From positions 1 to 64,000 of the forward strand of contig NZ_FXYY01000013.1 in NCBI RefSeq assembly GCF_900169165.1: a stretch of 64,000 nt of DNA, written 5' to 3'. Below are positions 35,277 through 36,058 of this stretch, piece after piece. Within the stretch, counting starts at the first letter, position 1; each line of letters begins with the position of its first letter. Origin of the DNA: Brevibacterium linens ATCC 9172. GTDB taxonomy: Bacteria > Actinomycetota > Actinomycetes > Actinomycetales > Brevibacteriaceae. The translations under genes and the position numbers were made by a program. The notes below the pieces were generated by a model that saw only the letters and a list, made by a program, of their open reading frames with translations, had not been told where the DNA came from and made no database searches.

Positions 35277-35549
35277 TCAGCTCTCAGCTGACGAATCCTC
35301 GGCGCTCGAAGTGTCCGAGGATGGAGTCACGGCGGACTCGTCGATCGCCTCATGCGAGCCGTCCGGGAGGCGTCGGAGGGTCACACCTTCCGCTTCGGCG
35401 AGCTTCTCCAGGTCCTCTTCGGATACATCGTCGGCATATCCGGGAGTCGCACCATAGGCGACATCGGGTCCGCTGGCCCTCGCCCCGAGCTCGTCGAGCT
35501 TGTCGTTGATCTTGTCGACCTTCTTCTGTGAATCAGTCTGGTCGGTCAT
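35277..35549 (-). CDS. Small acidic protein, paralogue A of a PDGSH pair
   Basis: A 90-aa hydrophilic protein with no signal peptide or transmembrane segment. Residues about 38-72 carry a motif shared with the next upstream small gene: GY-x2-D-x-SEE-x-L, AE-x-EGV-x-L-x-R-x-PDGSH-x-A-x-DES. The tail is Ser/Glu-rich and probably disordered. GAGGTGA precedes the ATG at 35549. I cannot assign a function; size, charge and duplication resemble stress-induced or DNA/RNA-associated small proteins, but that is speculation. Confidence 0.6.
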   Translation of the reverse strand: MTDQTDSQKKVDKINDKLDELGARASGPDVAYGATPGYADDVSEEDLEKLAEAEGVTLRRLPDGSHEAIDESAVTPSSDTSSAEDSSAES

Positions 35550-35662
35550 CTGTCATCACCTCACTGCTGCGAAGACGCTGTACTCGTGACCATAGTCGTT
35601 TTCTTTGATTCGTCCAGGGGGTGCCTCGCTTGCAGACGCAGCGCCGGATACAGAGCCGATGT

Positions 35663-35890
35663 TCAGTCATCGTAGCTCGAGTGGGATTCGTCGACGGCGA
35701 GATGTGAGCCGTCGGGATTGCGGTAGAGCTTCACTCCTTCGTGCTCAGCCGTGGTTTGCAGCCGTTCTTCGGAGCTGTCTTCTCGATAGCCGACTTTCTG
35801 CCCCTGGCCGATATTGGCGCTCTTGAACGCCTTCGGGATCTGTCTGATCGTCTGGGCCAACTTCGACGATCGATTCGTTTCTGCGGTCAT
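35663..35890 (-). CDS. Small protein, paralogue B of a PDGSH pair
   Basis: A 75-aa protein. Its C-terminal half matches the downstream neighbour: GY-x2-D-x-SEE-x-L, AE-x-EGV-x-L-x-R-x-PDGSH-x-A-x-DES (about 37-70). Its N-terminal half is different and basic (SSKLAQTIRQIPKAFKSANI), so the pair has one basic and one acidic partner-like end. The ATG at 35890 follows AAGGATC; a GTG-type start 21 nt earlier is rejected. A TATAAT lies about 40 nt upstream. The two genes are 113 bp apart and may be co-transcribed. Confidence 0.6.
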   Translation of the reverse strand: MTAETNRSSKLAQTIRQIPKAFKSANIGQGQKVGYREDSSEERLQTTAEHEGVKLYRNPDGSHLAVDESHSSYDD

Positions 35891-35915
35891 GATCCTTCGC
35901 CCCATTCCCACGCAG

Positions 35916-35933
35916 ATTGTAGAGAGAATTATA
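35916..35933 (-). promoter_or_regulatory. Tandem -10 elements for small paralogue B
   Basis: On the minus strand a perfect TATAAT (35933-35928) and a TACAAT (35921-35916) lie 12 bp apart upstream of the ATG at 35890. The -35 regions are weak. A perfect -10 is unusual in this GC-rich window and suggests strong expression. Confidence 0.5.
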
Positions 35934-36029: not shown

Positions 36030-36058
36030 TTTACTTAACGAATGATTAGCCATAGCTT
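36030..36058 (+). promoter_or_regulatory. Leaderless promoter of the acyl-CoA dehydrogenase gene
   Basis: TTTACT (36030-36035) and TAGCTT (36053-36058) are separated by 17 bp. The -10 ends exactly 6 nt before the GTG at 36065, with no ribosome site. Confidence 0.65.

Follow-up and report, generated by a model that had tools for sequence, protein, structure and literature searches.

The genome of Brevibacterium linens ATCC 9172 encodes two small adjacent proteins, here termed P1 and P2, whose family has a further member fused to a general stress protein, which suggests that the family assists the stress response as a small accessory unit. We give an even chance to the reading that P1 and P2 represent free-standing versions of a lineage-specific, cysteine-free accessory module of Brevibacterium stress proteins. 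This module would operate in cis where it is fused and in trans in the form of P1 and P2. The readings weighed below overlap, so that the probabilities attached to them need not add up to certainty. The genes and signals located in the window, i.e. the whole stretch of 64,000 nucleotides that was analysed, are listed in the table.

Table. Features of the P1/P2 locus, in positions of the window
Feature	Position	Strand	Basis
P1, 90-aa acidic member	35277..35549 (stop included)	-	ORF, dN/dS, P1 clade
P2, 75-aa member with basic N-terminus	35663..35890 (stop included)	-	ORF, dN/dS, P2 clade
P1 core GY...PDGSH...DES, residues 37-72	35334..35441	-	sequence, alignment, model
P2 core GY...PDGSH...DES, residues 34-69	35684..35791	-	sequence, alignment
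GAGGTG, Shine-Dalgarno-like, just upstream of P1	35557..35562	-	read from sequence
GGGGCGAAGG, Shine-Dalgarno-like, just upstream of P2	35894..35903	-	read from sequence
TATAAT, probable -10 box of P2	35928..35933	-	hexamer kept across P2 loci

Both open reading frames were found where the original prediction had placed them. They are arranged head to tail with P2 upstream of P1, the stop codon of P2 being separated from the start codon of P1 by 113 bases. An alternative in-frame GTG at position 35911 would extend P2 to 82 aa instead of the 75 aa obtained from the ATG. The proposed common core was recovered as well (39% identity between P1 and P2 across 72 aligned columns, E=1e-14 for that single comparison), and so were the differing ends: the tail of P1 is acidic (net -4) and the N-terminus of P2 is basic (net +5), the short tail of P2 being acidic too (net -2).

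Comparison of the window with orthologous loci yielded dN/dS ratios of 0.226, 0.241 and 0.225 in three comparisons for P1, with zero synonymous changes in a fourth one (L034), and of 0.16-0.42 in eight comparisons for P2. Both genes are under purifying selection and, judged by these ratios, appear to be real coding genes, which also points to their translation. The neighbouring genes of P1 and P2 do not look like stress genes: by sequence, one is predicted to encode a DctA-type symporter and the other an acyl-CoA dehydrogenase.

A search with P1, which also finds P2, detected one more copy, the third of this genome (G000:C60:41568-41843), and many further family copies in 59 genomes of relatives. 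The family was described by two profiles, A1 with 27 rows and A2 with 31 rows including divergent members, and by an alignment of 42 rows (A3); P1 and P2 are the first two rows in both A1 and A3. Its core reads GY...G[VD]-x-L-x-R-x-x-DG[ST]H and is present in both proteins. Across the 42 rows of A3, nine positions of the core do not vary (G37, A51, G55, L58, D63, G64, S65, H66 and A68); in the divergent rows of A2 the invariant positions are G55, D63 and G64 only.

Profile A2 matched 31 of 35 Brevibacterium genomes, whereas the 361 genomes sampled from the rest of the order gave a single weak match (E=0.008). Outside Brevibacterium there were furthermore six A2 matches in the class sample of 394 genomes (E 0.005-0.0096), one A1 match in the phylum sample of 396 genomes (E=0.0064) and three A1 matches in the order sample (E 0.002-0.009). 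Since these searches of order, class and phylum scored no more than 13 first-look candidates in each genome, a stray family member could be missed. A scan of contigs with one peptide pattern returned 73 stretches, 47 of which were confirmed; they correspond to 46 loci, all of them in Brevibacterium. Within the genomes sampled the PDGSH family thus seems confined so far to this genus.

According to searches against Pfam, NCBIfam, PHROGs and PADLOC neither P1 nor P2 has a significant match, and the claim that no described family carries the motif stands for these libraries, in which the core was not assigned to any characterised domain. For both proteins zero Pfam families were obtained at E up to 10 and no PADLOC match at E up to 0.1, and profile A1 retrieved zero matches among the PDB sequences at E up to 10. 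The PHROG search returned phrog_38738 for P1 only (E=0.17), and a stray weak match of P2 to a YiaD model (E=0.089) scored 12.5 bits with a cut-off of 175. Eight Pfam families were each hit by one of the 27 members of A1, the best being DUF6174 (E=0.0018); L048 and L061 gave matches below the cut-off, and in four further relatives Pfam detected nothing at E up to 1. Among the literature matches listed, no title or abstract opening describes a PDGSH family. A likeness in shape to DUF2188 was considered and dismissed, as the Pfam scan of P1 and P2 gave no match. An origin as a mobile or phage gene was not supported: a tblastn search with P2 as query against phages and plasmids gave no hits at E up to 0.01, and the neighbouring genes recur across loci. 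The members at L048, L051, L057, L061 and L072 have ends with a FPASxPP- or PPSEPPD-like motif, unlike P1 and P2.

In a tree of 83 distinct domain sequences P1 falls into a clade of 14 rows and P2 into a clade of 17 rows, each set apart from the remaining sequences by a branch with strong support (99/97 and 99/99, respectively); the tree is otherwise limited by few columns and some long branches. Since the two form separate, well-supported clades across species, P1 and P2 are old paralogues, and a recent tandem duplication was rejected. The original prediction of a pair of paralogues was therefore right as to paralogy and too narrow as to the pair, as P1 and P2 represent two clades of a larger family whose best clue to function lies elsewhere in the genome. 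Tandem module genes occur in divergent species, too (L146, L147, L249).

This clue is provided by the third copy, which makes up the N-terminal portion of a longer protein; at its C-terminal end this protein has the domain PF16242 (Pyrid_ox_like, COG3871; 112.4 bits, cut-off 28.8, E=1.7e-32) of the general stress protein 26 (GSP26/YdaG). Proteins of the GSP26 type are established as stress proteins, but little is understood of what they do biochemically, and to our knowledge no partner of a GSP26 protein has been described. Searched against the PDB, an orthologous fusion (L076) had six matches, five of them named general stress protein, with 2i02 as the best hit (E=4.5e-18). The module differs from these PDB relatives in being an extra N-terminal part outside the matched residues 102-272 of the fusion. 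P1 and P2 in turn contain none of the PF16242 domain, which was absent from both above the curated cut-off in the Pfam scan, and are thus without the barrel.

The link between the module and GSP26 extends across the genus. PF16242 was detected in 40 of 57 Brevibacterium genomes with 46 matches in all, 28 of which share an open reading frame with the module. In a further seven cases the PF16242 gene immediately follows a separate module gene of the same orientation, with a distance between the domain ends of 69-139 bases in five cases and 707 in two, and one match is divergently oriented beside a tandem module pair (G1126). The remaining 10 matches are unlinked to the module within about 1.5-3 kb; they include a fragment interrupted by two stops (G022) and a divergent match that is weak (G002).

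Taken strictly, the fused and the adjacent arrangements would fit a dedicated regulatory or stabilising subunit of GSP26, with the fusion as the covalent form of an obligatory complex. This narrower form of our explanation is also consistent with four genomes without the module (G004, G009, G026, G105), which are PF16242-negative as well; however, these genomes are small (2.3-2.6 Mb), so that the joint loss may be a coincidence. Moreover, PF16242 is missing in seven of the 31 module-bearing genomes (G005, G010, G016, G018, G028, G032, G076), for which reason GSP26 cannot be the only partner. Among the 78 module copies in the loci examined, 23 are fused and six precede GSP26, but 49, including P1 and P2, have no PF16242 link. 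The linker between module and PF16242 domain furthermore varies from 15 to 165 aa (L033, L049, L059 and other fusions), and the structural model of the fusion (14 rows, mean pLDDT 52.3) is too poor to indicate a contact between module and barrel. Taking these points together, a strictly GSP26-dedicated subunit seems rather unlikely.

One of the copies without GSP26 (L072) is located beside genes predicted by Pfam to encode an SDR, a ChaB-Rho_N and a PPK2 protein. The same SDR, ChaB and PPK2 neighbours were assigned by BLAST cluster to the copy at L051, and a PPK2 gene accompanies the copies at L048 and L057. The neighbours of the L072 and L051 copies are presumably stress genes.

On the tree the fused copies require two changes, of which the well-supported branches force only one. 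The tree thus falls short of proving repeated fusion and splitting, and a single fusion event may suffice.

A stress setting is supported by work on Priestia megaterium, in which the PF16242 protein YdaG/GSP26 is reported to be needed for growth at pH 4.5 (PMC11222612); this support does not extend to the module.

A more specific version of the accessory role, which we put forward tentatively as possible though not probable, regards the module as a genus-specific plug-in of flavin/F420-type general stress proteins that is fused to GSP26 in most species having it and encoded just before it in others. The orphan proteins P1 and P2 would then be competing or targeting subunits acting in trans.

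The structure prediction called for in the original prediction was run for P1 and was weak overall: the AlphaFold model (42 rows) reached a mean pLDDT of 62.4, the core faring better with block means of 69-78 for residues 41-70. It places helices at residues 3-25 and 44-53 and strands at residues 57-60 and 66-69. The module is accordingly predicted with low confidence to consist of an N-terminal helix, a GY linker, a second helix and a two-stranded hairpin with PDGSH in the turn. A Foldseek comparison of the P1 model with the PDB gave chance-level matches only (best E=0.62).

The low confidence of the model outside the core of P1 would also fit mostly disordered, hydrophilin-like protectants, in which the core serves as a tag for localisation, solubility or turnover instead of a binding module. 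P1 and P2 are indeed strongly hydrophilic (GRAVY -0.87 and -1.13, respectively) and contain no Cys or Trp, and the long linkers of the fusions are of low complexity, being rich in Ala, Gly and Pro with repeated APGMGAAVG-like units. However, the nine invariant core columns of A3 are more than such a protein should need, and the ends specific to each clade are kept in P1 and P2. We therefore consider protectants of this kind somewhat improbable.

The upstream region of P2 contains the perfect TATAAT to which the original prediction had drawn attention. It occurs once in the 64-kb window, where 0.66 occurrences are expected and at least one was present in 43 of 100 shuffles, so that its supposed rarity in GC-rich DNA is not significant and would be weak evidence alone. 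What did hold is the conservation of the element: it stands 37 bases before the ATG of P2, and TATAAT is found 37 or 38 bases ahead of the start codon in 16 of 17 P2 loci, the exception (L039) reading TATCAT. A promoter scan at P2 detected no -35/-10 pair reaching the sigma-70 threshold and no consensus -35, and the promoter elements seen point to no particular sigma factor.

An own conserved promoter element of P2, together with a basic N-terminus that would be amphipathic if helical, could be expected of a regulator, for instance a small nucleic-acid-binding or anti-sigma-type protein, and P1 and P2 would in that case have nothing but their ancestry in common with the GSP26-attached domain. 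Yet no regulator family was significantly matched by either protein. P1 moreover has a strongly acidic pI of 4.05, and its model has no structural neighbour according to Foldseek. A regulatory function of this type is hence quite unlikely.

Two further intergenic sequences were observed. Between P2 and the divergent acyl-CoA-dehydrogenase-like gene the plus strand contains TTTACTTAACGAATGATTAGC (window positions 36030-36050), which is kept in eight of the 12 P2 loci, out of 17, that entered the upstream alignment; it may represent a candidate operator of the acyl-CoA-dehydrogenase-like gene. Furthermore, many fusions and some separate copies are preceded by TGTTGC-N16-TGAGAATG with fixed spacing (e.g. 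G000:C60:41985-42014, minus strand). A shared promoter regulon based on this element was rejected, as the only exact-type match in the own genome is that of the fusion itself; with up to two mismatches there were 15 matches compared with six for the reversed control, which is not convincing.

Profile A2 also weakly picked up a fourth, distant branch of the family (A5, ...GPAQVDNTRPGGYYEDE...TDANGHSYVV), with one copy each in 38 of the 57 Brevibacterium genomes. A comparison of its profile with that of the PDGSH family (A2) gave a probability of 92.5 and an E-value of 4.8e-7, although its hairpin is of the NGHSY type and not of the PDGSH type. The copy of the own genome (G000:C52:145211-145480; L199:3006-3311, minus strand) encodes a protein of about 100 aa with the sequence GPAQVDNTRPGGYFEDE...TDANGHSYVV. 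An open reading frame that resembles methionine sulfoxide reductase by its sequence is located near this copy. GSP26 was absent from the 18 scanned loci L182-L199, which mostly span 3 kb and include some repeats or loci of another branch.

Another family of the order contains small GPA...DG proteins (G041, G059, G118, G075, G145) that are likewise short and combine a helix, GPA and a DG-type hairpin. They differ from the PDGSH proteins in lacking the PDGSH core and in having no A2 match at E up to 1. Between them and the fourth branch there are weak matches in both directions (E=0.0048, and E 0.001-0.005 in four Brevibacterium genomes), and two proteins of G041 have no Pfam match above the curated cut-off. 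The GPA...DG genes are arranged in tandem in G041 and G059. Such tandem small genes with a GPA/DG hairpin lie at L198 (413-646 and 799-1008) and at L203; those at L198 are followed by an open reading frame with an aspartate-kinase-like sequence. The PDGSH module may therefore belong, as its Brevibacterium branch, to a broader group of small actinobacterial proteins that has not yet been described.

If P1 and P2 are free-standing versions of a stress-protein module, the PDGSH hairpin would presumably form a docking surface, and the variable ends (acidic at the tail in P1, basic at the N-terminus in P2) could set the localisation or the choice of partner. The module might thereby position or regulate a split-barrel protein of the GSP26 type. 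In the fusion it would act in cis on its own GSP26, and P1 and P2 would act in trans, their target being either GSP26 or a different stress partner that they share.

With 35 of the 46 PF16242 matches in a single genus either fused to it or directly preceded by its gene, the module offers a handle on the binding or the site of GSP26. It furthermore represents a case of lineage-restricted small proteins becoming attached to conserved stress proteins.
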